A stretch of DNA of 64,000 nucleotides, taken from the NCBI RefSeq assembly GCF_001570565.1, contig NZ_BBXE01000024.1:6653-70652 (forward strand), given 5' to 3'. The DNA is from Herbidospora yilanensis. GTDB taxonomy: Bacteria; Actinomycetota; Actinomycetes; Streptosporangiales; Streptosporangiaceae. The translations under genes were made by a program, and so were the position numbers. Of the stretch, positions 1 through 25,107 are shown piece by piece; position 1 is the stretch's first letter; every line of letters starts with the position of its first letter. Below the pieces are notes generated by a model, which saw only the letters and a program-made list of their open reading frames with translations, was not told where the DNA came from and searched no databases.

Positions 1-1076
1 CCTCGCGGCACCCGCCGGTGCCGGACGGCCAGCACCGTCTTCAACAGCCCGGTCAGGCCGGCCGCGCCCTCCAGGTGTCCCACGTTCGTCTTCACCGACC
101 CCACGAGCAGCGGGCGGGCCGAGCCGAGGGCGGCTCCCAGCGCCGCCGCCTCGACCGGGTCGCCCACCGGGGTGCCGGTGCCGTGCAGTTCCACGTAGCC
201 GACGTCTTCCGGCGTGGTCCCGGCGCGGGCGTGCGCGGCCCGGATCACCGCCTCCTGGGCGGCCCGGCCGGGCACGGTCAGGCCGTCTGAGGCGCCGTCG
301 TTGTTGACCGCGCCGCCGAGCAGCACCGCGTGCACGCGGTCGCCGTCGGCCAGCGCGCGGTCGAGCGGCTTGAGCAGGACGGCCACCCCGCCCTCGCCGC
401 GCACATACCCGTTGGCACGGGCGTCGAAGGTGAAGCAGCGGCCGTCGGGGGACAACGCGCCGAACCCGGCGCTGCGTGCCCCGCTGTCGGGGGACAGGAT
501 CAGGTTCACCCCGCCGACCAGGGCCAGATCCGACTCGCCCCGGCGCAGGCTCTCGCTCGCCAGGTGCACCGCCACCAGCGACGACGACTGCGCCGCGTCG
601 ACGGTCAGGCTCGGCCCGGTCAGGCCGAGCACGTAGGAGAGCCGGTTGGCGAGGACGCCGCGGTTGAGGCCGGTCATCGCGTGCCGGCCGGGCTGGACGC
701 CGCGCAGGTGGTGGAGGGTGGCGTAGTCGTCCCAGAGGGCGGCGGCGAAGACGGCGGTCCGGCTCCCGGCGAGCGAGGCGGGCACGATGCCGGCCTCCTC
801 CAGGGCCTCCCAGCCCAGTTCGAGCAGGAGCCGCTGCTGCGGGTCCATCGCCGCCGCCTCCTTCGGCGAGATGCCGAAGAAGGCGGCGTCGAAGCGGTCG
901 ACCTCGTCGAGGTAGGCCCCGCGCGCCTCGCCGAGGCCGCGCCCGGCGGGGGCGGTGCCGACCGCGTCGCGCCCTTCGGTCAGCAGCCGCCAGAAGGAGT
1001 CGGGGTCCGCCGCGCCCGGCAGCCGGCAGGCCAGGCCGATGACGGCGATGGGGGTGCTGGTGTGGGAGTCGGACAT
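1..1076 (-). CDS. Modular type I polyketide synthase, N-terminal KSQ loading ketosynthase (partial, runs off left edge)
   Basis: Only the first 358 codons are present and the gene continues beyond base 1. The protein starts with the usual KS entry ([13 protein letters not shown], residues 9-21). The motif normally read DTACSSS is VDAAQSSS here, so the nucleophile is Gln163. The two catalytic histidines are kept: His298 in VELHGTGTP and His334 in KTNVGHLEG. In this family a Gln at the Cys site marks a KSQ domain, which decarboxylates malonyl- or methylmalonyl-ACP to make the starter unit. The protein is therefore inferred to be the first PKS subunit (AbyB1 equivalent). An AT and an ACP should follow outside the window. 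ATG 1076 is the start; a SARP-like box lies 24-51 bases upstream. Confidence 0.93.
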
Positions 1077-1098
1077 ACAACGCAGCTTGGCCTGAACC

Positions 1099-1127
1099 GC
1101 TAAGGAAGGCCTTGAGGCGATCTAAAG
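1099..1127 (-). promoter_or_regulatory. SARP-like heptamer direct repeats upstream of the PKS gene
   Basis: On the minus strand three heptamers sit exactly 11 bases apart: CTTTAGA (1121-1127), CTCAAGG (1110-1116) and CCTTAGC (1099-1105), each separated by 4 bases. Heptamers at 11-bp pitch are the classical layout of SARP activator sites. The element ends 23 bases before the PKS start codon. A SARP gene lies in the same cluster at 24334-25107. Binding is inferred; the repeat geometry is seen directly. Confidence 0.6.
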
Positions 1128-1236
1128 CCGTTTTTCTCCGTTACGGCTCCGCCCGGCCGGCACCGCCCGCCCTCGCCGCGTCGGCCGGCGAGCGGCGGCG
1201 ACCGCCGCTCGCACTCCCCGCCGCCACGGCCACAGC

Positions 1237-2097
1237 TCAGGGCCACAACCCGCGCTTGAGCGCCGCCAGGTGCTCGACGGCGATCCGCTGTTGCTCCGAC
1301 GGAAGGTCGGGCCCGCCGAAGGCGTGGTAGAACCCCGGGAAGTTGTGCAGTTCGACGGGCACCCCGGCCTGCGCCAGCCGCAGCCCGTAGAGGATCCCTT
1401 CGTCCCGGAGGGGGTCGAGGCCCGCCGTGGAGATGTAGGCGGGTGGCAGCCCCGACAGGTCCGTCGCCCGTGCGGGCGCGGAGTACCCCGACGCCGCCTC
1501 GCCCCCCAGGTAGAGACGCCAGCTCTCCACCGCCAGACCCCGGTTCCAGATCGGCGCGTCGGTCAGGGTGAGCATGGACGAGGTGTCGAGACGGTCGTCG
1601 AGCGCCGGGGTCGCCAGGTGCTGGAACACCAGCGGCGGCCCGCCCCGGTCGCGGGCCAGCAGCGCCACCCCCGTCGCCAGCGCCGCGCCGGAGCTCGCCC
1701 CGGCCACGCCGAGCCGCCCGCCGTCCACCCCCAGAGCGTCGGCCTCGGCCGCGAGCCATTCGAGCGCCGCGTACGAGTCCTCCAGCCCGGCCGGGTAGGG
1801 GTGCTCCGGCGCGAGCCGGTAGCCGACGGCGACCACGACGGCGGAGGCGTAGGCCGCCGCCTGCGCCGCCGCCTGGTGCACGTGGTCGACGTTCCCGAGC
1901 ACGAACCCGCCGCCGTGCAGCCACAACGTGGCGGGCAGCGGCCCGGTCAGGCCGCGCGGGCGGTAGACCCGCACGTGCACCGGCGCGGCGGGCTCGGTCA
2001 CGTCCACGGAGTCGAACCGCGGCAGCGCGGCCAGCGGTTGTGGACGGGTTCCGGCGCGGTCGGCGACGGCGTCGGTGAGGGTTCCGCTGATCGGCAT
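1237..2097 (-). CDS. HSL-family alpha/beta hydrolase (esterase/deacylase)
   Basis: A 286-residue protein with the hormone-sensitive-lipase signature: the oxyanion motif HGGG (61-64), YRLAPEHPYP (93-102) and the nucleophile elbow GASSG with Ser135. Candidate acid and base lie in the C-terminal GLDPLRDEG and FYHAFGG segments. The family hydrolyses carboxyl esters of small molecules. ATG 2097 begins two bases after the ferredoxin stop, so it is the last gene of the acyltransferase-P450-ferredoxin-esterase operon. A role in removing an acyl group from the polyketide, perhaps undoing the O-acyltransferase at 3483, is only an inference. Confidence 0.85.
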   Translation of the reverse strand: MPISGTLTDAVADRAGTRPQPLAALPRFDSVDVTEPAAPVHVRVYRPRGLTGPLPATLWLHGGGFVLGNVDHVHQAAAQAAAYASAVVVAVGYRLAPEHPYPAGLEDSYAALEWLAAEADALGVDGGRLGVAGASSGAALATGVALLARDRGGPPLVFQHLATPALDDRLDTSSMLTLTDAPIWNRGLAVESWRLYLGGEAASGYSAPARATDLSGLPPAYISTAGLDPLRDEGILYGLRLAQAGVPVELHNFPGFYHAFGGPDLPSEQQRIAVEHLAALKRGLWP

Positions 2098-2099
2098 GG

Positions 2100-2291
2100 T
2101 CACGCCTCCAGTGACAGGGCCTGTGACGGGCAGAGGTCGAGGATGTCCCGGAAGCGCTTCTCGTCCCCTTCCGGCACCTCCGGATCGAGCACTTCGACCA
2201 GCCCGAGCTCGGACTGGTCGAAGCGGTCGGGCGCGGACAACACGCACTGTCCCGCGCCCAGGCAGCGTCCTTGGTCGGCGCTGATACGCAT
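2100..2291 (-). CDS. [3Fe-4S] ferredoxin partner of the P450
   Basis: A 63-residue ferredoxin with cluster ligands Cys10, Cys16 and Cys55 (CLGAGQC and DLCPSQA). The middle Cys of a four-Cys set is absent, as in the [3Fe-4S] ferredoxins that feed electrons to actinomycete P450s. ATG 2291 is chosen over an upstream ATG because AGGAG lies just before it and the protein begins like the family. It starts 13 bases after the P450 stop, so the pair is co-transcribed. It resembles AbyW of the abyssomicin cluster in role. No ferredoxin reductase gene is seen in the window. Confidence 0.92.
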   Translation of the reverse strand: MRISADQGRCLGAGQCVLSAPDRFDQSELGLVEVLDPEVPEGDEKRFRDILDLCPSQALSLEA

Positions 2292-2304
2292 AAGAGACTC
2301 CTGT

Positions 2305-3486
2305 TCACCAGGTGACGGGCAGTTCCCAGACACCCTGGACGCCGCCCGCCTCCTTGATCGGCAGGTCGGCGAGGTCCCTGGCCAGCCGCAGGCCGGGCAG
2401 CCTGCGGAAGAGCGTGCCGAGGGCGATCTCCATCTCGGCGCGCGCCAGGTTCTGGCCGATGCACTGGTGCACGCCGTGCCCGAACGACACGTGGTGCCGC
2501 GCGCCGCGGTCGACCGCGAACGCGGCGGGGGAAGGGAACGCCTCCCCGTCGCGGTTGGCGGTGGCGATGACGATCACGATCCCGTCGCCGGCCCGCACCC
2601 GATGTCCGGCCAGGTCGGCGTCGACGGTGGCGAACCGGGCGATGCCGTCGGCGATGGCCATGTAGCGCAGCAGCTCCTCGACCGCCGTCGGCAGCAGCCG
2701 GGGGTCCGACCGCAGCGCGGCGAGCTGGCCGGGGTGCTCCAGCAGGGTGACGACGCCGAGCGCGATGGCGCTCGCGGTGGTCTCGTGACCGGCCACGAGC
2801 AGCAGCAGCGCGATGTCGACCAGTTCGGCGCGGGTCAGCGCGCCGGTCTCGACCTGCTCGGCGATCAGCGTGTCGAGCAGCCCGTCGCCCGGCTCCCGCC
2901 GCTTGCGCTGGATCAGATCGTCCAGATAGGCCTTGAGCTGCGCGAACGCGTCGGCGCTGTCTTCCAGGGTGGTGCTGCCGGTCACCACGCGCCGCGACTG
3001 GTGCTCGAAGAAGGCGTGGTCGGTGTACGGCACCCCGAGCAGTTCGCAGATGACGATCGACGGCACCGGCAGCGCGAAGTCGGGCACCAGATCGGCGACC
3101 GGGCCCTTGGCCTCGATCTCGTCGATGAGCCCGTCGACCAACGTCTGGATGCGGGGCCGCAACGCGTTGGTCTTCTTCACGGTGAAGCTCGACAGCAGCA
3201 TGCGCCGTTGCACGGTGTGCTCCGGCGGGTCCATGCCGATGAAGTTGCGCACCTTCCGGGCCGACTCGAACCGGGGCGCCAGCGCCGGATAGTGCGGGTG
3301 GACCCGGTCGGAGGAGTAGGTGGCCGGGTCGAGCAGCACCTGCCGCGCCTCGGCGTGCCCGGTCACCGCCCACACCTCCCGCCCGTTGTAGAGGCGGACC
3401 TTCGACACGGGGGCGTAGTCGGCGTATCCGGAGGCGGGCTGGAAGGGGCAGCCCCGGGCCTGCGGGTATTCGGGCAGGAGAGTCAT
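2305..3486 (-). CDS. Cytochrome P450 (CYP), probable spirotetronate oxidase
   Basis: A 393-residue bacterial class I P450. Visible motifs are the I-helix AGHETT (232-237), the K-helix E-x-x-R in EELLRY (270-275) and the heme loop FGHGVHQCIGQNLA with Cys342 as the thiolate ligand. The length is normal. ATG 3486 overlaps the TGA of the acyltransferase, so translation is coupled. The ferredoxin follows at once. In abyssomicin clusters the P450s epoxidise or oxidise the carbocycle (AbyV, AbyX); this one is the only P450 in the window, so a late oxidation of the spirotetronate is the best guess. The exact position oxidised cannot be told from sequence. Confidence 0.93.
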   Translation of the reverse strand: MTLLPEYPQARGCPFQPASGYADYAPVSKVRLYNGREVWAVTGHAEARQVLLDPATYSSDRVHPHYPALAPRFESARKVRNFIGMDPPEHTVQRRMLLSSFTVKKTNALRPRIQTLVDGLIDEIEAKGPVADLVPDFALPVPSIVICELLGVPYTDHAFFEHQSRRVVTGSTTLEDSADAFAQLKAYLDDLIQRKRREPGDGLLDTLIAEQVETGALTRAELVDIALLLLVAGHETTASAIALGVVTLLEHPGQLAALRSDPRLLPTAVEELLRYMAIADGIARFATVDADLAGHRVRAGDGIVIVIATANRDGEAFPSPAAFAVDRGARHHVSFGHGVHQCIGQNLARAEMEIALGTLFRRLPGLRLARDLADLPIKEAGGVQGVWELPVTW

Positions 3487-4631
3487 TCGGCCGCCTCCTG
3501 AAGGGGCTTCGGCGCAGGGGCGGGCGGTCGCGGCGCCCTGTCGTGGCGGGACACGCTGAACCGCCGTACCGCCGGGGTCTCCACGAACGTGAACAGGGCC
3601 CAGGCCAGCACCAGCGCGACCGCCAGCGCCAGCACCAGCAGCCCCGCCCCCACGATGGGCGTCAGATCACGCCCGTCGACCAGGTATCGGTGCAGGTAGG
3701 TGACCGTCAGCCCGTGGACCATGTAGAACGCGAACGACCACTCCCCGAGCCGTACCAGCGCCCGTCCCCGGAACGGCGACCGGGTGAGCTGGAGGTCGGC
3801 CCGCGCGGCGGCCACGACCAGCGGCGTCAGCCAGATCGCCGCGGTGCCCGCGATGCCCCACAGGTAGGGCACGTTCGCCTGCACCACGTAGCCGCCGACG
3901 GCGATGAGCAGCGCGGGCGCCGGCCCGAGCCGGGGCCACGCCCCCTCCAGGGTCAGCCGCGCGGCCACCACGCCCAGCACGAACTCGGCCGCCCGGACCG
4001 GCGGGAAGAAGTACACGAACCAGATCTGCTCGAACGACAACGTGCCGTCGGAGATGAACGGCAGCGGCTGCCCGCCGATCAGGTACACCGACACCAGCGG
4101 CACCAGCAGCGTCACCGCCACCAGCGCGCCCGCCGTGACCCACAGCGCCCGGATCGAGAAGCGGTTCAGCAGCCGCAGGATCCACGGGAAGGTCAGGTAG
4201 AAGAACAACTCGCACGACAACGACCAGCTCACCGAGTTCATCGTGTTCGGCACGGTGAGGTCGGGGATCCACGCCTGGAGCAGGAACAGGTTGGCCACGG
4301 TCCCGGTGGTGGTGAACGCCTGCGCGGTCAGCAGCATCAGCACGCCGGCCACGACGAAGGTGACGAGGTGGTTGGGGAAGATCTTCACCAGCCGCCGCCG
4401 CCACACCTTCGGCGGGGTGTCGCCGGGCCGTGCCGACCAGGTCAGCACGAACCCGCTGAGCACGAAGAAGAAGGTGACGCCGTAGAAGCCGGCGCTCTCG
4501 AAGACCGGGGTGTCGACGAACTTGGTCTGCCAGGTGGTGTGGAAGGCGAACACGAGCAGCGCCGCGAGGAAGCGCAACCCGGTCAGCGACGGGAGCCGCG
4601 CGCCGCGGGTCTGTTCAGGTGAGCTGGTCAT
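3483..4631 (-). CDS. Membrane acyltransferase, OafA/YrhL family (acyltransferase 3)
   Basis: A 382-residue integral membrane protein with about ten hydrophobic segments. The family motif GLRFLAALLVFAFH near the N-terminus gives Arg20 and the putative catalytic His31. The family moves acyl groups onto hydroxyls of sugars, lipids or antibiotics. It is the first gene of a four-gene operon with P450, ferredoxin and esterase, and has its own SARP-like box, which ties it to the pathway. I do not recall such a gene in the original abyssomicin cluster, so an O-acylated congener is a reasonable prediction. Substrate and acyl donor are unknown. Confidence 0.87.
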   Translation of the reverse strand: MTSSPEQTRGARLPSLTGLRFLAALLVFAFHTTWQTKFVDTPVFESAGFYGVTFFFVLSGFVLTWSARPGDTPPKVWRRRLVKIFPNHLVTFVVAGVLMLLTAQAFTTTGTVANLFLLQAWIPDLTVPNTMNSVSWSLSCELFFYLTFPWILRLLNRFSIRALWVTAGALVAVTLLVPLVSVYLIGGQPLPFISDGTLSFEQIWFVYFFPPVRAAEFVLGVVAARLTLEGAWPRLGPAPALLIAVGGYVVQANVPYLWGIAGTAAIWLTPLVVAAARADLQLTRSPFRGRALVRLGEWSFAFYMVHGLTVTYLHRYLVDGRDLTPIVGAGLLVLALAVALVLAWALFTFVETPAVRRFSVSRHDRAPRPPAPAPKPLQEAAE

Positions 4632-4664
4632 GAGAGTGAGGCTGGCAGCACGTTATTGGGCGGG

Positions 4665-4682
4665 TCTAAAGCCGTTCTTGTG
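4665..4682 (-). promoter_or_regulatory. SARP-like repeat upstream of the acyltransferase operon
   Basis: On the minus strand CACAAGA (4676-4682) and CTTTAGA (4665-4671) are 11 bases apart with a 4-base spacer. The core AACGGCTTTAGA is almost identical to that before the PKS gene. The box begins 34 bases before ATG 4631. The TAG stop of the upstream ABC ATPase (4666-4668) lies inside the second heptamer. A third heptamer at the next 11-base step (CCCAATA) matches poorly. Confidence 0.5.
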
Positions 4683-6255
4683 CGGGTTCCCGAGCGGTGC
4701 GGGCCCGTCGCGGCACCGCGTCCAGCAGCGACTTCGTGTACGGGTGGACGGGCCCCGCGAACACGTCCTCGACCGGCCCCGACTCGACGACGACGCCGTC
4801 CTTCATCACCATCACCCGGTCGCAGACCTCGCGGACCACGGCCAGGTCGTGGGAGATGAACAGGGTGGCCAGCCCCAGCTCCTCCTGGAGGCGGCGCAGC
4901 AGGTCGAGCACCTGGGCCTGCACCGACACGTCGAGCGCCGACACCGGCTCATCGCACACCAGCAGCCGGGGCTCGGGCGCCAGGGCGCGCGCGATGGCCA
5001 CCCGCTGGCGCTGGCCGCCGGACAACGCGGCGGGCCGCCGGTCGAGCAGGTCGGCGGTCAGGCCGACCCGCTCCAGGAGGACCTCCGTGCGGGCGGCGCG
5101 CTCGGCGCGCGGCACCCCGGTCGCGGCCAGCGCCTCGCCGACGATCCGCGACACCGGCCAGCGCGGGTCGACGGCGCTGAGCGGGTCCTGCGGGACGAGC
5201 TGGATGGTGTGCCGCCGCGCCCGGCGGGCCCGTTCTGGCACGCCGCTCCAGGGTTCGCCGCCGAGCAGCACGCTCCCCTCGTCGGGCCGGGCCATCCCCA
5301 GCACGACCCGGGCCAGCGTCGTCTTGCCCGAGCCCGACTCGCCGACCAGGCCGAGCGTCTCGCCCGGCCGCAGCGTGAAGTCGACGCCCGCCACCGCCGT
5401 GCGCCCGGCGAAGCGTTTGACCACTCCGGTGACGTCGAGCAGCGGCTCGCCCTCCGGCGGCCGTCCACGGCTGGCGCGGGGCCGGCCGCCCGGCACGGCG
5501 GCGAGCAGCTCCTTCGTGTACGCGTGCCGAGGGTCGTCGAGCACCCGGCCGGCCGGGCCGGTCTCGACGATCACGCCGTGCCGCATCACCGCCACCTCGT
5601 CGGCCAGCGCCTCCACCACCGCGAGGTCGTGGGAGATGAGCAGCAGCCCGGTGCCCTGCTGCTTCAGCTCGTCCAGCAGGGCCAGCACCCGGGCCTGCAC
5701 GGCGGCGTCGAGCGCGGTGGTCGGTTCGTCGGCGATCAGGATGCCCGGTCCGGCCGCGATGGCCGAGGCGATGAGGGCACGCTGGCGCAGCCCGCCCGAG
5801 AGCTGGTGGACGTACTGGCGGGCACGTTCCTCCGGATCGGGCACGCCGACCCGGGTGAGCAGGCCGACCACCCGCTCGCGGGCCCCGCTCCGGGGCACGG
5901 TGCGGTGCGCCAGCAGCGATTCGGTGATCTCGGCGCCGATCGGGCGCAGCGGGTCGAGGGCGACCAGCGCGTCCTGGGAGACGAGCCCGATGTGCCGGCC
6001 GCGCACCCTGCGCCATTCGCGCGGGCCGAAGTCCCGGGCGTCCTGCCCGGCGACGCGTAGCTCCCCGGCGGTGACCGTGGCGGTCGGCCCGGCCAGCCCG
6101 AGGAGCGATCGGGCCAGCGCCGACTTGCCCGACCCCGACTCGCCGACCAGGGCCAGGCAGCGGCCCGGCTCCAGCCGGAGCGACGCGTCGCGCACGGCGT
6201 GCACGCGGCCGGCGGCGAACCGGACGTTGAGGTCTGCCACCTCGACGAGACTCAT
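4666..6255 (-). CDS. Fused double ATPase of a dipeptide-type ABC transporter (DppD-DppF)
   Basis: A 529-residue protein with two complete ABC domains. The first has Walker A GESGSGK near residues 38-44 and signature LSGG in QLSGGLRQR; the second has GESGSGKTT near residues 305-313 and ALSGGQRQRVAIARAL. Each has a Walker B (DEPTTALD, DEPVSALD). It energises the permeases encoded just upstream. ATG 6255 overlaps the TGA of the second permease. Abyssomicin clusters carry similar transporter genes (abyF set). Peptide-type importers inside antibiotic clusters may import precursors or signals, or be recruited for self-protection; the direction here is inferred as import because a binding protein is present. 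Confidence 0.93.
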   Translation of the reverse strand: MSLVEVADLNVRFAAGRVHAVRDASLRLEPGRCLALVGESGSGKSALARSLLGLAGPTATVTAGELRVAGQDARDFGPREWRRVRGRHIGLVSQDALVALDPLRPIGAEITESLLAHRTVPRSGARERVVGLLTRVGVPDPEERARQYVHQLSGGLRQRALIASAIAAGPGILIADEPTTALDAAVQARVLALLDELKQQGTGLLLISHDLAVVEALADEVAVMRHGVIVETGPAGRVLDDPRHAYTKELLAAVPGGRPRASRGRPPEGEPLLDVTGVVKRFAGRTAVAGVDFTLRPGETLGLVGESGSGKTTLARVVLGMARPDEGSVLLGGEPWSGVPERARRARRHTIQLVPQDPLSAVDPRWPVSRIVGEALAATGVPRAERAARTEVLLERVGLTADLLDRRPAALSGGQRQRVAIARALAPEPRLLVCDEPVSALDVSVQAQVLDLLRRLQEELGLATLFISHDLAVVREVCDRVMVMKDGVVVESGPVEDVFAGPVHPYTKSLLDAVPRRARTAREPAQERL

Positions 6256-7058
6256 GAGGCGTACCGTCCCTCGGATCGGTTCTGGGCGTGGCGACCGGCG
6301 ACGGTCACCGCGATGACGGTCAGGACGAGCATCAGGCCGGGGAACAGCGCCGCCCACCACGCCAGGTGGAGGAATCCCTGGCTCTCGGTGAGCATCGCCC
6401 CCCACTCGGGCGTCGGCGGCTGCGCGCCGAGGCCGAGGTAGCTCAGCGCCGCGCCCGTCGAGATGGACACGCCGAGCGTGACGGTGGCCAGCACCAGCAG
6501 CGGCCCGAACGTGTTGGGCAGCACGTGCCGCAGCACCACCAGCGGCCGGGGCACGCCCAGCCCGATGGCCGCCTCGACGTAGCCCGACCGGCGCACCACG
6601 AGCGCCTGGGCGCGCACCACCCGGGCGAAGCCGGGCGCGATGCCCACGGCCACCGCGAGGGTCGCGCCGACCACGCCCTTGCCGGTGATCAGCACCACGA
6701 GCAGGGCCAGCAGCAGGCCCGGCAGCGCCAGCAGCGCGTCGGCGACCCGCATCAGCACCGCGTCGCCGAACCGGCCCGACAACGCCGCCAGCAGGCCCCA
6801 CACCACGGCGATGAGCAGCCCGCCCACGGTGGCCGCCGCGCCGATGGCCAGCGAGTGGCGGGCGCCGTGCACGACACGGGTGAAGACGTCGCGCCCGAGC
6901 TGGTCGGTGCCGAACAGGTGGGCGGAGTCGGGCGGCAGGAAGGTCGCGAGCGGATCGGTCGCGGTCGGGTCGCCCGCCGCGAGCAGCCGGGGAAAGAGCG
7001 CGGCCACGACGAGCAGCAGCAGGAACGCCGCCGCGGTCACGACACCCACGTGTCTCAT
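6252..7058 (-). CDS. ABC transporter permease, DppC type
   Basis: A 268-residue permease with an N-terminal membrane anchor, the DppC-type entry HLFGTDQLGRDVFTRVVHGAR and about five further hydrophobic segments. The EAA-type cytoplasmic loop is at YVEAAIGLGVPRPLVVLRHVLPN, the site that docks the ATPase. ATG 7058 overlaps the TGA of the upstream permease. It pairs with the DppB-type permease at 7055-7993. Confidence 0.93.
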   Translation of the reverse strand: MRHVGVVTAAAFLLLLVVAALFPRLLAAGDPTATDPLATFLPPDSAHLFGTDQLGRDVFTRVVHGARHSLAIGAAATVGGLLIAVVWGLLAALSGRFGDAVLMRVADALLALPGLLLALLVVLITGKGVVGATLAVAVGIAPGFARVVRAQALVVRRSGYVEAAIGLGVPRPLVVLRHVLPNTFGPLLVLATVTLGVSISTGAALSYLGLGAQPPTPEWGAMLTESQGFLHLAWWAALFPGLMLVLTVIAVTVAGRHAQNRSEGRYAS

Positions 7059-7993
7059 ATCGCCTGCACCCCCGTCTTCCTGCGCAGGCGGGGGTCGACG
7101 ACGGCGTACAGGACGTCGACCAGCACGCTCACCGCGACGAACACCACCGCCGACAGCGCCACCACCCCCTGCACGACCGGCAGGTCGCGGTCGCCGACCG
7201 CCTGGAGGGTGATCCGGCCGATGCCGGGCCGGGCGAACACGTTCTCCACGATCACCGCGCCGCCCAGCAGGGTGCCGGTGAACCAGCCCGCCATGGTCAG
7301 CGCCGGCAGCGCGGAATGGCGCAGCGCGTGCCGGTAGCGCACCGCCGTCTCCGGCACGCCGCGCGCCCGCGCGGTCACCGCGAACGGCTGGTCGAGCGCG
7401 GCGAGCAGGCCCTCGCGCATCACCTGGGTCAGCACGGCCGCGATCGGCAGCGCCAGGGTGATCGTCGGCAGCACCAGCGAGGCCACGCCGCCGGTCTCCG
7501 ACACCGGCAGCCAGCCCAGCCGGAACGAGAAGATCGTCAGCAGCATGATGCCGAGCCAGAACGACGGCGTCGACACCACCACCAGCTCCACCGCCGCCGA
7601 CAACCGGCGCGGCCAGTTCCGCCGCCCCGAGGTGGCCACCGTCACCCCCACCGCCAGGAGCGGGGCCAGCACGGTGGCCGCCAGCGCGAGCTGCACGGTC
7701 GGCCAGAGCTGGTCGGCCAGCACCGTCGCCACCGGCTGCTGGAGCTGGTAGGAGTCGCCGAACCGGAACGTCGCCAGCCGGGCCACGTAGTTCAGGTACT
7801 GCACCACGAGCGGCTGGTCGAGGCCGTACTCCGCGCGGATCCGCTCGTGCTGCTCCTCGGAGACCAGCGCGTCGGAGCCGACGACGGCGTAGACCGGGTC
7901 GCCCGGGATGAGCTGGAGCACCAGGAAGGCGCAGGTGGCCGCGGCCCACACGACGAGGGCCGCGCTCACCAGCCGGGTCAGCACACCCCTCAC
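7055..7993 (-). CDS. ABC transporter permease, DppB type
   Basis: A 312-residue membrane protein of the DppB/OppB type. It has an N-terminal membrane segment (FLVLQLIPGDPVYAVVG), a periplasm-facing helical insert and an EAA-like loop around FAVTARARGVPETAVRYRHALRHS. The start is GTG 7993, which overlaps the TGA of the binding protein (GTGA). It forms the translocation channel with the DppC-type partner. Confidence 0.92.
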   Translation of the reverse strand: MRGVLTRLVSAALVVWAAATCAFLVLQLIPGDPVYAVVGSDALVSEEQHERIRAEYGLDQPLVVQYLNYVARLATFRFGDSYQLQQPVATVLADQLWPTVQLALAATVLAPLLAVGVTVATSGRRNWPRRLSAAVELVVVSTPSFWLGIMLLTIFSFRLGWLPVSETGGVASLVLPTITLALPIAAVLTQVMREGLLAALDQPFAVTARARGVPETAVRYRHALRHSALPALTMAGWFTGTLLGGAVIVENVFARPGIGRITLQAVGDRDLPVVQGVVALSAVVFVAVSVLVDVLYAVVDPRLRRKTGVQAI

Positions 7994-9672: not shown

Positions 9673-9690
9673 GCTAAAGCGGGGCTGAAA
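9673..9690 (-). promoter_or_regulatory. SARP-like repeat upstream of the ABC importer operon
   Basis: On the minus strand TTTCAGC (9684-9690) and CTTTAGC (9673-9679) are 11 bases apart, spacer CCCG. The box starts 52 bases before ATG 9621. As at the acyltransferase promoter, the TAG stop codon of the upstream gene (LLM monooxygenase, stop at 9674-9676) forms part of the second heptamer. Confidence 0.55.
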
Positions 9691-12108: not shown

Positions 12109-12141
12109 GACCACTCCTTTGAACCGGGGAGACAGTGAAAA

Positions 12142-16672: not shown

Positions 16673-17703
16673 GACGCGCCGCCTACCAGCGCGAACCCGG
16701 CCTTGATCCACTTGCTCGACTCGATCGACACCCCGACCGCGCGCTCGCCGGGGGAGATCTCGGCCAGCGCCCGCTCCAGTTGCAGGAAGACGATGGCGTT
16801 GCCGCAGTTGCCCGCGTGGTCGACGACGGAGACCTCCCGGGCGGCGGGCAGCGCCAGCCGGTCGGTGATCAGCCGGGTCATCCGGCCCGAGAGCTGCGGC
16901 GGCAGCACCAGGTCGACGTCGCGGTCGGTCCAGCCGGTGGCGCGCAGCAGCTCCAGCAGCACCTCCTCGGTCATCTCGGGCACGTGCCTCTCGATCGCCT
17001 TGTAGTCCTCGGTCGCCGCCGGACGGTCGTGGTCGCGGTCGGCGTGGCGGTCCGCGGGGCCGAACCACTCCAGCACCGCGCCGGGCTCCCGGCCCAGGCC
17101 GACCAGGCGGGTGAACAGGGCCCGCACCTCCGCCGAGCCGGGCGCGGGCCGGGCCGACACCACGGCCGCGCCCGCCGCGTCGCCGAACAGCACGTAGTTG
17201 ACCAGCTCGGCCGGGGCCGCCCTGGTCAGGTCGCGGGTCACGTCGTAGAAGCGGGCGATCACGTCGCCGCCGAGCACCAGCACCGTCCCGGTCTCCCCGG
17301 CCAGCAGCAGTTGCCGGGCCACGTCGAGCGCCTGGACGGCCCCCGAGCAGCCCGACTGCAACTGGAAGGTGCGCACCTGGTCGATGCCGAGCCGGTCGGC
17401 CACGACGTTCACGGTGGCCGGCATCAGCCGGTCGGGGGTCGCGGTGCCCAGGACGACGGCGTCCACCTCGCCCGCCGTCACGCCCGCCGCCGCCAGGGCG
17501 CGGGCCCCGGCGTCGGCGGCCAGGTCGGCGAGGGTGGTGGTGACCTTGCCCGACTCCAGGTCGAGCGCCAGGTGGCGGGCACGGGTGCCGATGAAGACCT
17601 CCACCCACTGCTCCCACAGCGCGTCCATGCCGAAGCGCCGGGCCAGCGCCGCGTTGTCCACGGGGGGGCCGGGCAGCGCCGAGGCGGCCGAGAGGATGTG
17701 CAT
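16669..17703 (-). CDS. abyA1: KAS III-like ketosynthase for tetronate ring closure (AbyA1-like)
   Basis: A 344-residue FabH-fold protein. The nucleophile is Cys119 in QLQSGCSGA, and Asn299 lies in the GNCGNA motif. At the place of the FabH PHQAN motif the sequence is LPPQLSG (267-273), so the usual catalytic His is Pro269. In tetronate clusters this enzyme joins the glyceryl-ACP to the polyketide and forms the tetronic acid ring. It begins four bases after the AbyU-like gene and overlaps the FkbH-like gene. Confidence 0.92.
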   Translation of the reverse strand: MHILSAASALPGPPVDNAALARRFGMDALWEQWVEVFIGTRARHLALDLESGKVTTTLADLAADAGARALAAAGVTAGEVDAVVLGTATPDRLMPATVNVVADRLGIDQVRTFQLQSGCSGAVQALDVARQLLLAGETGTVLVLGGDVIARFYDVTRDLTRAAPAELVNYVLFGDAAGAAVVSARPAPGSAEVRALFTRLVGLGREPGAVLEWFGPADRHADRDHDRPAATEDYKAIERHVPEMTEEVLLELLRATGWTDRDVDLVLPPQLSGRMTRLITDRLALPAAREVSVVDHAGNCGNAIVFLQLERALAEISPGERAVGVSIESSKWIKAGFALVGGAS

Positions 17704-17707
17704 CGGC

Positions 17708-18112
17708 TCAGCCGGCGAGCAGGATGCGCGCCTCTGCCGAGGCCCGCACGCCGGTCATGCGCCAGGTGCGGAACCCGGTGAGGCCCTCGTACCTGCCGCC
17801 GGTGCCGGTGGCCGGGTAGTAGACCCACTCGCTGGTCCGCACGTCGTTGAAGTCGGCCCAGCCCTCGGCGTGGATGGTGCCGTCGGTCAGCGTGATGTCC
17901 TCGGTGTAGTAGGTCATCAGGCCGCCGTCGCCGGGGCGTACGTACTCGATCCGGAACGAGCCGTGGGAGGTGCCCAGGAGGTTGCCGTCCTCGTCGTAGA
18001 TCTCGTCGTCGAACGTGCCGGTCTGCCCGATCTGCGGGTCGGCGACCGTGACGTCGTCGACCACCTTCACCACGATCTCCTTGGGCGCGCGGATCACGAT
18101 CTGGTCGGCCAT
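17708..18112 (-). CDS. abyU: Spirotetronate cyclase, AbyU-like Diels-Alderase
   Basis: A 134-residue soluble protein, probably a small beta-barrel of the allene-oxide-cyclase-like fold. It shows TEDITLTDGTIHAEGWADFN, RTSEWVYYPATG and TGFRTWRMTGVR, which match AbyU of the abyssomicin pathway closely as I remember that sequence. AbyU catalyses the intramolecular [4+2] reaction between the exocyclic methylene of the tetronate and the polyene, giving the spiro ring. ATG 18112 has AGAGAGG at a good distance. The gene lies 17 bases downstream of the RHS gene and just upstream of the tetronate cassette. Confidence 0.93.
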   Translation of the reverse strand: MADQIVIRAPKEIVVKVVDDVTVADPQIGQTGTFDDEIYDEDGNLLGTSHGSFRIEYVRPGDGGLMTYYTEDITLTDGTIHAEGWADFNDVRTSEWVYYPATGTGGRYEGLTGFRTWRMTGVRASAEARILLAG

Positions 18113-18129: not shown

Positions 18130-20640
18130 TCAGTCCAGGGGGAAGCGGGCCGGTGGTTCGCCCGCGATCAGGGGGATGCGGTCGCCCGCGCACTCCGGCA
18201 GGGGAGGCGGCGGCGGGCCCGGGAAGAAGCGCTCCACCGGGTGACCGCTCAGCACGGCCCAGAAGTCGTGCCGGGTCGGGGTCGCGGTGTTGACGGGGTC
18301 GTTGTCGCGGAAGGTGTAGGGCGCGTACGCCCGCCGCCGCGGGTCGGGCTGGGTGAAACGGCCCCAGTGGCCGTTGTAGAGGTGGTCGTCGAGGACGTGC
18401 GCGCTGCGCAGGAGCTGGTAGGCGCCCAGGAAACGCAGCGGGTTCAGAGCGGCGGCCGGGCCCTCGGCGGTGACGGCCCCGTGGGGGGTGTAGCGGTAGC
18501 GGGCGGTGATCTCGCCGTCGGCGCCGACCAGGGCCGCCACCGAGCCCTGGTGGTCGGTCACGATCCAGTGGTGCTCTCCGCCGGGGGCCGTCAGGGCGAT
18601 CGGCGTCCCGTCGGGAAGGCGCACCAGGTCGGTGGGCGCGCCGTCGTCGGCGACGCGCAGCAGTCCGAGCTCCGACCAGGTCAGCACGTGGGTGACGGTC
18701 CGGCCGTCGACGGTGGTCTCGGTGATCCGGCGCGGCGTGCGCTGGTCGAGGCCGTCGTAGGAGACGTCCACGACCCGGACCCCGCCGAAGACGCCGGTGA
18801 GGGTCTGGTGGGTGGGGCTGTAGGCGAACGAGCCGGTCGGGTTGACCTCCTCGACGAAGTCGCCCGCGCCGTCGTAGGTGAACTCGGTGTCGCCGAAGCG
18901 GGTCACCTGCCCGGCCGCGTTCAGCGTGAAGGCGACCCGGCCCAGCCTGACCAGGTTGTGCGCGCGGTCGTAGGCGTACTCGGTCTCGCCCGCGCGCACC
19001 AGGCGGCCGAGCTCGTCGTAGGCGTACACGACGGTCGCGCCGTCGATCTCGGCGGTGCGCAGCAGGCCGCCCTCGTAGGTGTACCGGGCGGTCAGGCGCG
19101 GTTCGCCGTCGGGGCCGCGCACGGTCAGCGCGGTGCGGCGGCCCGAGGCGTCGTGCTCGATCTCCTGTACGGCCGCCCCCAGGTCCACCCGGACCAGCCG
19201 GCCGGCGGCGTCATGGGCGAGCCGGGCGACGTGCCCGGCCGGGGTCGTCACCGTCGCGAGCCGGCCGAAATCGTCGTAGGCGTAGGCCGTGGTGCCGCCG
19301 GGGGTGGTGACGGCGAGCAGGTCGCCGTCGGGGGAATGGTCGTAGCGCACCTCCTCGGCCGGTTCGCCGCCGGCGGTGCGCACGGACCGGGTGATCCGGG
19401 GGCCGCGGCCGGTGGGGGTCCACGTGCGGGCGTAGGACCAGCCGGGACCGGAGCGGCGGACGACCCGGCCGAGACCGTCGTGGGAGAACGAGGCCAGGAC
19501 CGTGCCGGTCGCCTCGTCGAGGACCTCGGCCAGGCGCCCGGCCGCGTCGTGCCGGTAGCCGACCGTGCGGCCGTCGCCGCCCGTGACGGCGGTGACCCGC
19601 GACAGGCCGTCGCGGGCGTACCGGACCGGGCCGAGCGGCGTGGGCGGGGTGACGGTGGTCAGGTTCCCGGCGGCGTCGTAGCCGAAGGAGGTGGTGTGGC
19701 CGTTGCCGTCGGTGAACGTCAGGGGACGGCCGTGGATCGGATGGTAGGTGCGGATGTCGAGGGGCTCGTCGCGGCCGGGCGCCAGGGCGCGCGTCAGGCG
19801 GCCCTCGTCGTCGGTGTCCAGCCGCAGTTCCCGGCCCGCCGGGTCGCGCAGGACGGTGCGCGGCCCGTGTTCCGCGCGGCTCTCCTCGCCGGTCGGCAGC
19901 CGCAGGGTGGTCAGCCGGCCCTCCTGGTCGTACTCGCGGGTGACGACGCCGCCGAGGGGGTCGGTCTCCTCGTGGAGGAGGTCGCCGTCGGTCCAGGCCC
20001 AGCGGCGTCCGTCGCCGAGCGCGACCAGGCGGCCCCTCTCGTCGAAGTCGTGGACGGTCACCCGCCCGGCGGCGTCGGTCACCGTCGTCCGGCCGGGGGA
20101 GTAGGCGAAGGTGAGCCGGCCGCCGCCCCAGTCGAGCGTGGTCACCGCCCGCGCCTCGTAGGAGAAGGCCAGCGTGCCGCCGGCCGGGTCCTCCAGGGCC
20201 GTCAGGCGGTCGTCGTCGTCCCAGCGGAAGACGGTCGCCGCGCCTGCGGCGTCGGTGTGCCGGACGGGGCGTCCGGCCAGGTCGTACAGGAACGCGGCGG
20301 CCTGCGCGCCCAGCGGGTCGACGATCTTCGTGATCAGGCCGCCGGTGTCGCGGTGCAGGGTGACGACGCGGCCCTGGTCGTCGACGACGACGGGTTCGCC
20401 CGCCGGGCCCCGGACCGGCGCGGGGTCGAGCCGCCAGCCCGGCCCGAGCCCGGCCTCCTGCCGCGATCCGCCCCGGTACTCCCTGACCAGCCGCAGGTGG
20501 GCGCGGGTCCCGGCCACCACCAGGTCCAGCCACCGCACGACCGGCGTGCCGTCGCGCAGGTCGACCAGCACCTCGGCGGCGTCGCCGAGGGGGATGCGCC
20601 GGACCGCGTGGCGGGCGTGGACGTCCCGGAGTGTGGACAC
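18130..20640 (-). CDS. RHS/YD-repeat protein at the head of the tetronate operon
   Basis: An 836-residue protein made almost entirely of YD/RHS repeats (for example YDLAGRPVRHTDAAG, YDAAGNLTTVTPP, YDELGRLVRAGETEYAYD), ending in an RHS core (LRFLGAYQ...LYNGHWGRFTQPDP) and a short tail of about 50 residues. There is no signal peptide, no membrane segment and no recognisable C-terminal toxin. The start is uncertain: GTG 20640 has GAGGGG at a suitable distance and leaves room for the upstream box, whereas ATG 20682 would place the box almost on the start codon. It is 17 bases upstream of the AbyU-like gene in the same direction, so it should be co-transcribed with the cassette. Its function here is unknown. 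Confidence 0.85.
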   Translation of the reverse strand: MSTLRDVHARHAVRRIPLGDAAEVLVDLRDGTPVVRWLDLVVAGTRAHLRLVREYRGGSRQEAGLGPGWRLDPAPVRGPAGEPVVVDDQGRVVTLHRDTGGLITKIVDPLGAQAAAFLYDLAGRPVRHTDAAGAATVFRWDDDDRLTALEDPAGGTLAFSYEARAVTTLDWGGGRLTFAYSPGRTTVTDAAGRVTVHDFDERGRLVALGDGRRWAWTDGDLLHEETDPLGGVVTREYDQEGRLTTLRLPTGEESRAEHGPRTVLRDPAGRELRLDTDDEGRLTRALAPGRDEPLDIRTYHPIHGRPLTFTDGNGHTTSFGYDAAGNLTTVTPPTPLGPVRYARDGLSRVTAVTGGDGRTVGYRHDAAGRLAEVLDEATGTVLASFSHDGLGRVVRRSGPGWSYARTWTPTGRGPRITRSVRTAGGEPAEEVRYDHSPDGDLLAVTTPGGTTAYAYDDFGRLATVTTPAGHVARLAHDAAGRLVRVDLGAAVQEIEHDASGRRTALTVRGPDGEPRLTARYTYEGGLLRTAEIDGATVVYAYDELGRLVRAGETEYAYDRAHNLVRLGRVAFTLNAAGQVTRFGDTEFTYDGAGDFVEEVNPTGSFAYSPTHQTLTGVFGGVRVVDVSYDGLDQRTPRRITETTVDGRTVTHVLTWSELGLLRVADDGAPTDLVRLPDGTPIALTAPGGEHHWIVTDHQGSVAALVGADGEITARYRYTPHGAVTAEGPAAALNPLRFLGAYQLLRSAHVLDDHLYNGHWGRFTQPDPRRRAYAPYTFRDNDPVNTATPTRHDFWAVLSGHPVERFFPGPPPPPLPECAGDRIPLIAGEPPARFPLD

Positions 20641-20695
20641 AGGCTGCTCACCCCTCGAATCGGCCGGTATGGCGAGCCTCATCTTTGGCCCCGTT

Positions 20696-20713
20696 TCTAA
20701 AGCGGGACTTAAC
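20696..20713 (-). promoter_or_regulatory. SARP-like repeat upstream of the RHS-AbyU-tetronate operon
   Basis: On the minus strand GTTAAGT (20707-20713) and CTTTAGA (20696-20702) are 11 bases apart with spacer CCCG, the same spacer as in the importer promoter. It lies 56-73 bases before the preferred GTG start of the RHS gene. The rest of the 276-base gap 20641-20916 must also hold the promoter of the divergent LuxR gene; an AAGGTT/AACCTT inverted pair (20847-20852 and 20893-20898) is visible there. Confidence 0.55.
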
Positions 20714-20916
20714 GCCCCCAGAATCCGGTTCGCGGCAATTTGCCGGGATGTTTCGTGCCCGGTCAGCGGCCGCCGGGGTCCTGGCGCGGCCATTCCGGAC
20801 GGGGGCTAACCCGGTATTCCGATGGCGCGCTAATCGGGCGGGCCGCGAAGGTTGGTTATGCTATTCCCTAATTCCAGTAGGTTTTGTATAGAAACCTTGG
20901 GGAGGCGTCCGCGAAG

Positions 20917-23625
20917 ATGACGGTCACCGTTCGTGCTCAGGAGATCCGGCGTCCCGCCCTCGTCCGAGACGTGGAGTTCGACCGCCTGACCCGTCTCGTC
21001 CGGGCCGCGCGCGACCGCCACGGCCTGGTCGCCGAACTGACCGGCGACCCCGGCGCGGGCAAGTCGTGGTTGCTCGGCGCTCTCGCCGGGGAGGCCCGCC
21101 GAGACGGCGTCACGGTGTTGTCCGGCCGCTGTTCCGAGGCGGGCGGCGAACAGCCGTTCCACCCCTTCCTCCAGGCCCTGGCCACCTGGCGCGGGACGGA
21201 GGGCCGCATCGTGCCCGCCGCCGCGACCCTGATCGACGTGCTCGGCGCGGCGGGAGAGTCCGGGAGCGGCACGTTCGCCGGACGCCACCAGCTCTTCGTC
21301 ACCGTGCGCCGGGGGCTGGCCGACTGCCTGGCCGCCGCGCCCGGCGACGTGCTGCTGCTCCTCGACGACGTCCACTGGGCCGACCCGCTCTCCGTCGCCC
21401 TGCTGGAGATGCTCATCCGGCGTCCCGTCGACGGCCCGCTGACCACCGTCGTCGCCCACCGCCCCCGTCAGTCGCCGGTCCGGCTGCGCTCGGTGCTCGA
21501 TCTCGGCGGCGTCGCCTCCGTCGCGCTCGGCCCGCTGACCTACGGCCAGTCGGCCCGGCTGCTCGACGGCGTGGCCCACGAGATGGTCCAGGGCCTGCAC
21601 GACGACGCGATGGGCAACCCGCTCTACCTGACGGCGCTGGCCGGCCGGCACCGGGACCGCCCGGCCGACGACGGCGACCCCTGGACCCGCGGCAGCCTCG
21701 GCACGCGGCTCCTGGCCGAGACCGAGCCGCTGCCCGGGGAGGCCCGGCTGGTGCTCGACGCCGCGGCCGTGCTCGGCGACGTCGTCGACGTCGGCGCGGT
21801 GGCCGCCGTGGCCGGGGTCGACCGCGACGTGGCCTGCCGGGTGCTGACCGAACTCCGGCGGCGCGACCTGATCAGGCCCGTCCCCGGGAGCCCGGGCACG
21901 CTCACCTTCCGCCATCCGCTCGTCCGGCTCGCCCTGTACGGCGCCGTCGACCCCTGCTGGCGGTCGGCGGCGCACGGCAGGGCCGCCCGGCACCTGTCGG
22001 CCACCGGCTCGCCGCCCGCCGAGGTGGCCCGGCACGCCGAACGCTCCGGGATCCTCTCCTCCGACAGCGCGCTGCTGGTGGCCGCCGTCCACGACGCGCT
22101 GCGCAACGGCCGCCCGGCCGAGGCGGCCCACTGGGCGGGCTCGGCGCTGCGGGTGCACCGCGCCCGCGGCGCCGAACCCGGCCCCGGGTTGTGGCGGCCG
22201 GTCGTCCGGGCGCTGGCGGCCACCGGCGACGCCGCCGGGGTCCGCGAGCTGGCCAGGCAGGTGCTCGGCGGCCCGGTTGGCGCGCGCTCCGTGGCCTTCC
22301 TGTCGTCGGTCGTGGCCGCGCTCGGCGACGCGGGCGAGGCGCAGGCGCTCGTCCTGGCCGAACTGACCGCGCGGGGCGACGCCGATCCGGCCGCCCGCGC
22401 GCTGCTGCACGTGCAGGCGCAGCTCTCCAAGGTGCTGGCCGGGCAGACCCCGGCCCGCGCCGACGTCGAGGCGCTGGCCCGCGACGCCGCGCACGAAGAC
22501 CGCGTCACCGGGGCGGGCCGGCTGGCCCTGCTCGGCATGTGCATGGTCATCGGCGGCCACACCACCCGGGCCGCCGGGCCGCTCCGGGCCGCCGCCCGGC
22601 TCCTCGGCGGGACGGAGACGCCGGCCGGTTCCCGGGAGGGCGGCCACCTGCTCGTGCTGGCCTGGGCCGAGGCCCTCATGGGGTGGTACGACCAGGCCCG
22701 CGCGCACGCCGAACGTGCTCTGTCGGGGGCCCGCGAACGCGGCGAGGCGCACCTGATGGCCCCCCTGCTGGGCACCCTCGGCTACGTCCTGTTCCACCTG
22801 GGCCGGCCCGCCGACGCGCACACCGTCTCGCTGGAGGCCCGGTCGGTCGCCCACCGCATCGGCCGCGACGACCACGTCGGCCTGGCCGACGCGCTGATCG
22901 CCGCCTCCTGGGCCCGGCTCGGCCGCCCCACCCTGCCGAACGGCCGCGACGACGACCCCGGGGCGGCCAGGACCCCGATCAACGCCCTGCTGTTCGCCGA
23001 GGCCGCGCTGACGGGCGGCGAACCCGGCCGCGCGCTGGCCCTGCTGCTCCCCCACGAGCCGGAGCCGGGAGACCTGCCCGAGCAGGTGCCCGAGCCGGTC
23101 CAGGTCTACGCGGCCTGGTGCTATGAGCTGCTGGCCGCGGCGGCCCTGCGCGCCGACGACGGCCGGCCCGCCCGCGTCGCCCGCTGGGCCGAGGCCGCCG
23201 CCGACGCCGCGGTCGCCGTCGGCCTGCCGGAGGCCGCCGGGCACGCCCTGCTCGCCAAGGGCCACGTGTTCGCGCAGGCCCGCCGGTGGGAACAGGCCGC
23301 CCGCTGCTACGAGGAGGCGCTGGCCCTGCTCGGCGACGGCCCTCCGGGAGGCGCGCGGGCCCGTGACCTCGCCCGCGCGGCCGTCCACCACCTGGCCCTC
23401 GGCCCGCAGGCCGGCCTGGGCGAGCTGACCTCACGCGAACGCGAGGTCGCCGACCTCGCCGGCGAGGGCCTGAAGACCAAGGACATCGCCGAGCGCCTGC
23501 GCATCAGCCCCCGCACGGTCGACGTCCACCTCAACCGCATCTACGCCAAGCTCGGCGTCGGCTCCCGCGCCGCGCTGGTGCGCCTGCTCAGCGTGTCGGA
23601 ACCGCCCGCGCCAGGTCCGCGATGA
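20917..23625 (+). CDS. LAL-family LuxR transcriptional regulator
   Basis: A 902-residue large ATP-binding LuxR regulator. Walker A is GDPGAGKS (43-50), a Walker B-like LLLLDDVHWAD lies near residue 150, a long TPR-like helical middle follows, and the C-terminal helix-turn-helix is LTSREREVADLAGEGLKTKDIAERLRISPRTVDVHLNRIY (split here: it runs over about 60 residues at the end). ATG 20917 is preferred to an upstream TTG because GGGGAGG precedes it and the protein then starts normally. It is divergent from the RHS operon and fits AbyH in role: a pathway-specific activator. Its end overlaps the thioesterase end by 38 bases. Confidence 0.93.
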   Translation: MTVTVRAQEIRRPALVRDVEFDRLTRLVRAARDRHGLVAELTGDPGAGKSWLLGALAGEARRDGVTVLSGRCSEAGGEQPFHPFLQALATWRGTEGRIVPAAATLIDVLGAAGESGSGTFAGRHQLFVTVRRGLADCLAAAPGDVLLLLDDVHWADPLSVALLEMLIRRPVDGPLTTVVAHRPRQSPVRLRSVLDLGGVASVALGPLTYGQSARLLDGVAHEMVQGLHDDAMGNPLYLTALAGRHRDRPADDGDPWTRGSLGTRLLAETEPLPGEARLVLDAAAVLGDVVDVGAVAAVAGVDRDVACRVLTELRRRDLIRPVPGSPGTLTFRHPLVRLALYGAVDPCWRSAAHGRAARHLSATGSPPAEVARHAERSGILSSDSALLVAAVHDALRNGRPAEAAHWAGSALRVHRARGAEPGPGLWRPVVRALAATGDAAGVRELARQVLGGPVGARSVAFLSSVVAALGDAGEAQALVLAELTARGDADPAARALLHVQAQLSKVLAGQTPARADVEALARDAAHEDRVTGAGRLALLGMCMVIGGHTTRAAGPLRAAARLLGGTETPAGSREGGHLLVLAWAEALMGWYDQARAHAERALSGARERGEAHLMAPLLGTLGYVLFHLGRPADAHTVSLEARSVAHRIGRDDHVGLADALIAASWARLGRPTLPNGRDDDPGAARTPINALLFAEAALTGGEPGRALALLLPHEPEPGDLPEQVPEPVQVYAAWCYELLAAAALRADDGRPARVARWAEAAADAAVAVGLPEAAGHALLAKGHVFAQARRWEQAARCYEEALALLGDGPPGGARARDLARAAVHHLALGPQAGLGELTSREREVADLAGEGLKTKDIAERLRISPRTVDVHLNRIYAKLGVGSRAALVRLLSVSEPPAPGPR

Positions 23626-24337
23626 GGCGGGCCTTGCCCGGCGCGTCGTCGGCGACGAAGAAGTGGCCGCCGGGGAACACCCGCAGGTCGAACCCGCCGG
23701 TCGTGTGGTGCCGCCAGGCCGCCACGTCGGCGACGGGGGCCTCCTCGTCGTGGTCGCCGGCGAAGGCCGTCACCGGGCACGAGACCGCCGCGCCCGGCGT
23801 GTCGCGGTAGCCCGCCAGGGCCGCGTGGTCGGCGCGCAGCGCGGGCAGCACCAGCTCCAGCACGTCGGGGTCGGTGAGGCGGCCGGCGTCCGTGCCGCCC
23901 AGCGCCCGCACCCGCGCCACGAGCGCGGCGTCGTCCGAGGGCTCCGGGGAGGGCCGCCACCGCGACGGCGCGCGGCGGCCCGACAGGATCAGCCGGGCGG
24001 GAGCCGCGCCGGCGCGCCCCTCCAGCCGGGCGGCCACCTCGTAGGCCAGCGACGCCCCCATGCTGTGCCCGAGGAACACACGTGGCCGGGCCGCCGGTTC
24101 GCCGAGCACCTCGGCCAGCCGGTCGGCCAGCGTGTGCAGGTCGGTCACCGGCGGTTCGCGGTGGCGGTCCTGCCGGCCCGGATACTGCACCGCCAGCGTC
24201 TCGACGCCGGGCGCCAGCAGCGCCGACAGCGGATACCAGTAGGCCGCCGCGCCGCCCGCGTGCGGGAAGCAGACCAGTTCGGCCTCGGCTGAAGGGCTCG
24301 CGTGGTAGCGGCGCAGCCAGGTGCCGGCGGTGGTCAA
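23588..24337 (-). CDS. Type II thioesterase (AbyT-like)
   Basis: A 249-residue alpha/beta hydrolase with GHSMG (Ser92), an Asp in AFAGDHDEEAP and a His in FPGGHFFV, the type II thioesterase triad. It opens with the family segment LVCFPHAGGAAAYWYPL. Such enzymes clear stalled acyl groups from PKS carrier proteins. No ATG lies at a good place; TTG 24337 overlaps the TGA of the SARP gene (TTGA) and gives the usual length. Its last 38 bases overlap the end of the convergent LuxR gene. Confidence 0.88.
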   Translation of the reverse strand: MTTAGTWLRRYHASPSAEAELVCFPHAGGAAAYWYPLSALLAPGVETLAVQYPGRQDRHREPPVTDLHTLADRLAEVLGEPAARPRVFLGHSMGASLAYEVAARLEGRAGAAPARLILSGRRAPSRWRPSPEPSDDAALVARVRALGGTDAGRLTDPDVLELVLPALRADHAALAGYRDTPGAAVSCPVTAFAGDHDEEAPVADVAAWRHHTTGGFDLRVFPGGHFFVADDAPGKARLIADLARAVPTR

Positions 24338-25107
24338 CTGGCCGCACGCAGGTCGAGCAGGGCGTCGGAGGTCAGGATCGCGTGGTGCAGCCGCCGCAGC
24401 GCGGGGCAGGGCTGCACCCCGAGCTCGGCCTGCAGCACCTGCTGGGCCGTGCGGTAGACCTGCAACGCGTCGGCCTGCCGCTCCGACCGGTAGAGGGCCA
24501 GCATGAGCTGACGGTAGAACGACTCCCGGAGCGGATGCTGCGTGATCAGCCCGTTCAGCGGGCCGATCACCTCGCGGTGCCGTCCGAGCGCGGTGCGCGC
24601 CTCGATCGACAACTCCAGGCAGTCGAGCCGTTCCTCCTCCGCCCACGCGGCGAACGCGGCGAGCACGGGCCCCTCGGGCGACTGGTCGAGCACCGGCCCG
24701 CGCACCAGCCGCAGCGCCTCCTCGAACTGGGCGAGCGCCTCTTCGTACCGCCCGGCCTGGAGGAAGAGCCTGCCGTGGCCGACGGCCCGCTGGAAGTCGG
24801 TCACGTCGTACTCGGCGTCGCGCAGGCGCAGCACGTAGCCGGACGACCGGGTGACGATCGTCTCCCCGTCGCCGTGCCCGGCGGCGGCCAGGAACTTGCG
24901 CAACTGGGAGATGTAGACGTGCAGCGCCGCCGAGGCCCGCTGGGGCGGCGACTCCCCCCACAACTCGGTGATGAGCTGCTCCTTGGTCGTGACCCACTCC
25001 GCCCTGACGAGCAGGATGGCCAGGGTCGTCTCCATCTTCGGAGCGCTGAGGAAATGGGACTCCCGGCCGTCGGACACACGGAGCGGCCCAAGCAGTTCGT
25101 AACGCAT
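24334..25107 (-). CDS. SARP-family pathway regulator
   Basis: A 257-residue Streptomyces antibiotic regulatory protein. The N-terminal half is the OmpR-like winged helix (MRYELLGPLRV...TLAILLVRAEWVTTKEQLITELWG...SAALHVYISQLRKFL) and the C-terminal half is a BTAD domain (YEEALAQFEEALRLVRGPVLD onward). ATG 25107 is preferred because GAGGTG precedes it and the family normally starts MRYEL. It resembles AbyI/AbyR. The four CTTTAG-type direct repeats in the cluster are its natural candidate targets. Confidence 0.94.
   Translation of the reverse strand: MRYELLGPLRVSDGRESHFLSAPKMETTLAILLVRAEWVTTKEQLITELWGESPPQRASAALHVYISQLRKFLAAAGHGDGETIVTRSSGYVLRLRDAEYDVTDFQRAVGHGRLFLQAGRYEEALAQFEEALRLVRGPVLDQSPEGPVLAAFAAWAEEERLDCLELSIEARTALGRHREVIGPLNGLITQHPLRESFYRQLMLALYRSERQADALQVYRTAQQVLQAELGVQPCPALRRLHHAILTSDALLDLRAAS

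Follow-up and report, generated by a model that had tools for sequence, protein, structure and literature searches.

The locus and its genes

Positions 1-25107 of the window, by which I mean the whole stretch of 64,000 nucleotides from Herbidospora yilanensis that was analysed, hold most of an abyssomicin cluster in type 1b layout, a reading to which I give a probability of roughly 0.93 and which places this cluster in a Herbidospora species, a soil actinomycete. The window corresponds to bases 6653-70652 of a contig of 239,439 bases (C24), in a genome of 7.85 Mb and 67 contigs. The polyketide synthase (PKS) gene, the tetronate genes AbyA1-A5, the Diels-Alderase gene and their companions are arranged as follows.

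1..1076, minus: AbyB1 homologue, 5' part with loading KSQ, running on left of the window (Pfam ketoacyl-synt; active site DAAQSSS)
1237..2097, minus: esterase, alpha/beta-hydrolase of the hormone-sensitive-lipase type (Pfam Abhydrolase_3; top PDB matches lipases/esterases)
2100..2294, minus: small single-cluster ferredoxin adjoining the P450 (Pfam Fer4_15, Fer4_13 and Fer4_19 above cut-off; motif)
2305..3486, minus: AbyV homologue, cytochrome P450 (Pfam p450; top PDB match 7QAN, E 2.2e-151)
3483..4631, minus: membrane O-acyltransferase (Acyl_transf_3)
4666..6390 (start approximate), minus: AbyF4 homologue, ABC importer ATPase (Pfam ABC_tran)
6252..7163 (start approximate), minus: AbyF3 homologue, permease (Pfam BPD_transp_1)
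7055..8050 (start approximate), minus: AbyF2 homologue, permease (Pfam BPD_transp_1)
7990..9621, minus: AbyF1 homologue, solute-binding protein (Pfam SBP_bac_5)
9674..10681, minus: AbyE-like luciferase-type monooxygenase (Pfam Bac_luciferase)
10678..12111, minus: AbyD-like MFS exporter (Pfam MFS_1)
12188..12829, plus: AbyC-like TetR regulator (Pfam TetR_N, TetR_C_7)
12824..13867, minus: AbyA5 homologue (alpha/beta hydrolase; position within the A1-A5 cassette)
13864..14598, minus: AbyA4 homologue (Pfam 2-oxoacid_dh)
14595..14822, minus: AbyA3 homologue, discrete acyl carrier protein (Pfam PP-binding 22.2 bits, cut-off 20.8)
14819..16660 (start approximate), minus: AbyA2 homologue, FkbH type (NCBIfam FkbH, 284 bits)
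16669..17703, minus: AbyA1 homologue, KASIII type (Pfam ACP_syn_III)
17708..18112, minus: AbyU homologue, Diels-Alderase, AOC-like (98/131 identical to AbyU; nine of nine positions kept)
18130..20793, minus: AbyK homologue, RHS/YD-repeat protein (Pfam RHS_repeat; junction with abyU; fold match to Rhs cores)
20884..23625, plus: AbyH-like LAL-type LuxR regulator (Pfam AAA_16, GerE)
23588..24340 (start approximate), minus: AbyT-like type II thioesterase (Pfam Thioesterase, 168 bits)
24334..25107, minus: AbyI-like SARP regulator (Pfam BTAD, Trans_reg_C)

Read from 25107 down to 1, the order is SARP, thioesterase, LuxR, RHS protein, AbyU and A1-A5, then TetR, MFS exporter, AbyE-like monooxygenase, importer F1-F4, O-acyltransferase, P450, ferredoxin, esterase and KSQ, mostly on the minus strand, with LuxR and TetR on the plus strand. 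Five further species of Herbidospora, one Acrocarpospora and Streptomyces have a matching order, as far as it was read. The SARP gene, likely the right edge of the cluster, probably has its start codon at position 25107. An earlier note, made from the sequence alone, had named a nearly complete abyssomicin-type cluster, and it did so correctly: every gene that it lists is present, ferredoxin and thioesterase included, and gene set, PKS order and the AbyU and AbyV matches all agree.

The closest solved structure to the Diels-Alderase is 5DYV (E = 5e-65), and 98 of the 131 residues aligned with Micromonospora maris AbyU are identical. All nine positions inspected (19, 41, 76, 95, 104, 106, 122, 124 and 126) are kept in the homologue of the window, 41, 104 and 106 being my own addition. 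Their numbering was deduced from the sequence and agrees with the L73M label of 5DYQ. The other six are named in PMC11268479. For the P450 at 2305-3486, the best solved match is 7QAN, which is AbyV itself (PMC10107801), whereas for a further P450, on contig C14, the same structure ranks only tenth. With E-values of this order for AbyU and AbyV, the abyssomicin identity lies beyond chance.

The earlier note also had the PKS continuing left of the window, which is the case: a gap of 389 N (contig positions 6264-6652) is followed by about 6.3 kb of PKS up to the contig end. The remainder was found on two other contigs (C59 and C14), except for about 5.5 kb that was not found on the contigs read. 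The modules run from the KSQ loading module through three malonyl modules with dehydratase (DH) and ketoreductase (KR) domains and a methylmalonyl module with DH, enoylreductase (ER) and KR domains to a minimal malonyl module, in which no thioesterase domain was found. In the ER module, the ketosynthase (KS) and half of the acyltransferase (AT) domain are unassembled. Domain order and motifs were read in all modules but one. The two points on which the note would have been refuted, the AbyU pocket and the chain length of the PKS to the left, come out in its favour, as the pocket positions are kept and the module order, judged by domains and motifs, fits abyssomicin.

Several observations weigh against this reading. 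I know of no product from any of these strains, and one PKS module, module 5, is unassembled here, with only its KS present. In four relatives this module has the AT motif YASH and lacks the KR motif, which is what I would expect of the missing stretch in H. yilanensis. In an aby-type cluster, module 5 would be methylmalonyl, with DH and KR both inactive. However, the DH keeps HxxxGxxxxP in three of the four relatives, whereas the DH of aby module 5 is described as dead (PMC3625739). Some DH motifs of Acrocarpospora and S. fragilis escaped the patterns used here. Table 1 of PMC3625739 places the KSQ with module 2 instead of with a loading module, and it has no counterpart of the acyltransferase and the esterase.

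Adjacency of the RHS and Diels-Alderase genes

The RHS gene ends, with its stop codon, 17 nucleotides ahead of the AbyU start. It corresponds to abyK, which the table of the original cluster entered in 2011 as 'YD repeat', with no role stated (PMC3625739, Table 1). I compared 22 loci, namely the window and 21 loci from a genome scan with an AbyU identity of at least 76%, which are not independent, as six are from Herbidospora. In all 22, the gene immediately upstream of AbyU is an RHS gene in the same orientation, whereas A1 directly follows AbyU in 20. In 21 of these loci the RHS and AbyU genes are separate, with the RHS end lying between -8 and +103 nucleotides from where the AbyU match begins; in the remaining one, from S. 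iconiensis (L049), they form a single frame of 1030 codons. A second fused frame, of 1043 codons, occurs in genome G072 (L016/L088). No RHS homologue was found in the available DNA of four other scan loci with AbyU identities of 33-51% (L064-L067, of which L064 offers 472 bases upstream only), nor within at most 1.5 kb on each side in seven short loci with weaker AbyU matches.

Among 394 genomes of the class, with two candidates scored per genome, 129 have some match to AbyK, and five reach at least 53% identity among the matches listed; those next by E-value have 34-36% identity over long stretches, and short matches among those listed reach up to 52%. The label 'YD repeat-containing protein' is also attached to AbyU in the PDB and to an S. 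regensis protein (PMC5819245); this may be a case of annotation transfer, and I made no use of it. A discussion of the pairing was not met in the part of the open-access literature that was examined.

It is fairly probable that the RHS gene is a mere operon neighbour with no physical link to the Diels-Alderase, and that a stop codon was lost by chance in each of the two fused frames. Recombinant AbyU works alone, as a dimer (PMC11318650), and in the S. iconiensis frame a Met stands just ahead of the AbyU part, so that separate translation is possible. The AbyK gene also has a high dN/dS, 0.34-0.47 in comparisons with three relatives and 0.76 with S. fragilis, on par with the LuxR gene, and two loci (L065 and L066) have an AbyU-like gene before A1 with no AbyK. 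However, the pair has stayed intact in two Micromonospora loci in which A1-A5 lie on the opposite strand, and of the five close AbyK homologues four have AbyU adjacent or fused, the fifth being cut by a contig end. The constancy of the adjacency makes the role of AbyK a testable question.

A more specific proposal, which I consider unlikely, sees in AbyK and AbyU an RHS pair that has been domesticated: the YD-repeat shell would have lost its self-cleavage site, and a small beta-barrel enzyme would occupy the position once held by the C-terminal cargo. In the cell, the role of the shell would then be to hold, fold or shield the Diels-Alderase or the reactive substrate of this enzyme. AbyK carries the signature of such a shell in its RHS repeats (Pfam). 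The AlphaFold2 model of the window protein (mean pLDDT 77, pTM 0.80) is confident for the repeats and not for the core end, and its first matches in Foldseek are Rhs cores (best E 8e-38). In the model of the fused S. iconiensis frame (39 rows; mean pLDDT 79, pTM 0.71), the repeats and the AbyU barrel are confident, and the core end and the linker are not, the stretch 766-894 being poor; its barrel superimposes on AbyU 7PXO at 0.9 A, and the model matches Rhs cores in the PDB with a best E of 6e-39. The TM-scores listed are at most 0.59, with large rmsd, so that a closed cage is no more than a possibility.

The likeness to the Rhs effector cores (PDB 7Q97, 8QJA and 8CP6) lies in the YD repeats. 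In contrast to these, AbyK has no delivery domain by Pfam, and DPxG(L) at the core end is missing, by eye, in all 23 AbyK homologues and in L087, while DPxG is present there in six of six other RHS proteins; a seventh, L093, was excluded, as its frame breaks before the site. DPLG does occur at an earlier DP in L061, L016 and L087, and L061 has two DPAG in its tail as well. Moreover, Rhs effectors carry their cargo in the same polypeptide, whereas the enzyme is here a separate gene in all loci seen but two, L049 and L016/L088. If the proposal is true, a cage that carries toxins elsewhere would have been turned to antibiotic biosynthesis.

Tailoring genes and the proposed product

A ferredoxin gene stands by the AbyV homologue in all nine other clusters whose AbyV neighbourhood was read, the O-acyltransferase in eight and the esterase in seven. 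In the study of AbyV, the native redox partner was not identified in aby (PMC10107801), and the ferredoxin at 2100-2294 is a candidate for it. The earlier note took the RHS protein, the acyltransferase and the esterase as extra genes that suggest a new congener. This argument is the weaker part of an otherwise well supported claim: the RHS gene is abyK and not extra, and although the other two are indeed absent from the aby table, so that the final compound may be other than abyssomicin C, they and the ferredoxin, which that table does not name either, are common to the clade and therefore no mark of a congener specific to the H. yilanensis strain. An acylated product is possible, as a clade-wide feature.

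In that line, the cluster could yield an O-acylated abyssomicin, or an intermediate could be protected by acylation that the esterase later undoes, with acyltransferase, ferredoxin and esterase as the tailoring set of the clade. I hold this as a tentative proposal; it is compatible with an abyssomicin cluster and concerns the end product only. The recurrence of the genes around AbyV speaks for it; against it, the esterase is missing in S. iconiensis, and neither acyltransferase nor esterase is present in the stretches read of Frankia sp. EI5c. Membrane acyltransferases of the Acyl_transf_3 family also modify cell-surface sugars, which likewise counts against it. In the stretches read of the same Frankia locus (L061, L100), nothing that matches A2 lies between A1 and A3 either.

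If the abyssomicin cluster is expressed, the KSQ-primed PKS, with seven modules including the loading module, would make a linear chain, which the AbyA1-A5 homologues would join to a glyceryl unit, forming an exo-methylene tetronate. The AbyU homologue would perform the [4+2] cyclisation, for which type I stereochemistry is the most likely, and the AbyV homologue would epoxidise the ring with electrons probably supplied by the adjoining ferredoxin, while exporter, importer and regulators would serve the pathway. Related cyclases and tetronate cassettes also serve larger spirotetronates, but a different product of that larger kind is highly improbable here, with a seven-module PKS in abyssomicin order and with AbyU and AbyV as the nearest solved matches.

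Beyond the SARP gene, an F420-type LLM oxidoreductase (25220-26125) adjoins the cluster and probably lies outside it; it is also found by the SARP gene in three other Herbidospora species, and not in H. mongoliensis. Further on lie a protein of glycoside hydrolase family 2 that carries AbfB domains (26802-29852) and one more ABC importer of the oligopeptide type (30718-35796). A second large modular PKS region of the same genome (C30:4336-51800) has nine KS domains (Pfam) and a different layout.

Comparison with known abyssomicin clusters

The cluster is known in kind, and this Herbidospora genome is added to a known antibiotic family. The PKS parts beyond the window are now placed, and the tie between the genes for the RHS protein and the Diels-Alderase is the part worth a test. 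With the aby cluster of Micromonospora (Verrucosispora) maris AB-18-032 (PMC3625739) it shares A1-A5, AbyU, AbyK, AbyV, AbyE, C, D, F1-F4, H, I, T and, as far as assembled here, the PKS module order. In contrast to aby, the accessory genes are grouped on a single flank of the PKS, the thioesterase stands between H and I, acyltransferase, ferredoxin and esterase surround AbyV, a further P450 follows the PKS, and a second SARP (abyR) was not found among the open reading frames scanned.

From the abm cluster of Streptomyces koyangensis (PMC5819245), which has in common A1-A5, a Diels-Alderase, AbmV and SARP and LuxR-type regulators, it differs in that AbmU is distant from the AbyU of the window (phmmer E 6e-16) and in that abmK encodes a PPTase instead of an RHS protein.

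The layout is that of type 1b as described by Iglesias et al. 2020 (PMC7176366), who name Herbidospora among its genera and have three Herbidospora in their survey: all conserved blocks lie upstream of the PKS, and one more P450 lies downstream. They name this P450 an extra abyV, whereas the one past the PKS here (C14; L013:9675-10859) is nearer to a P450 from a M. wenchangensis locus, with 63% identity; the same M. wenchangensis P450 is 52% identical to the local AbyV homologue. By sequence, the P450 past the PKS may be AbyX-like rather than an extra abyV.
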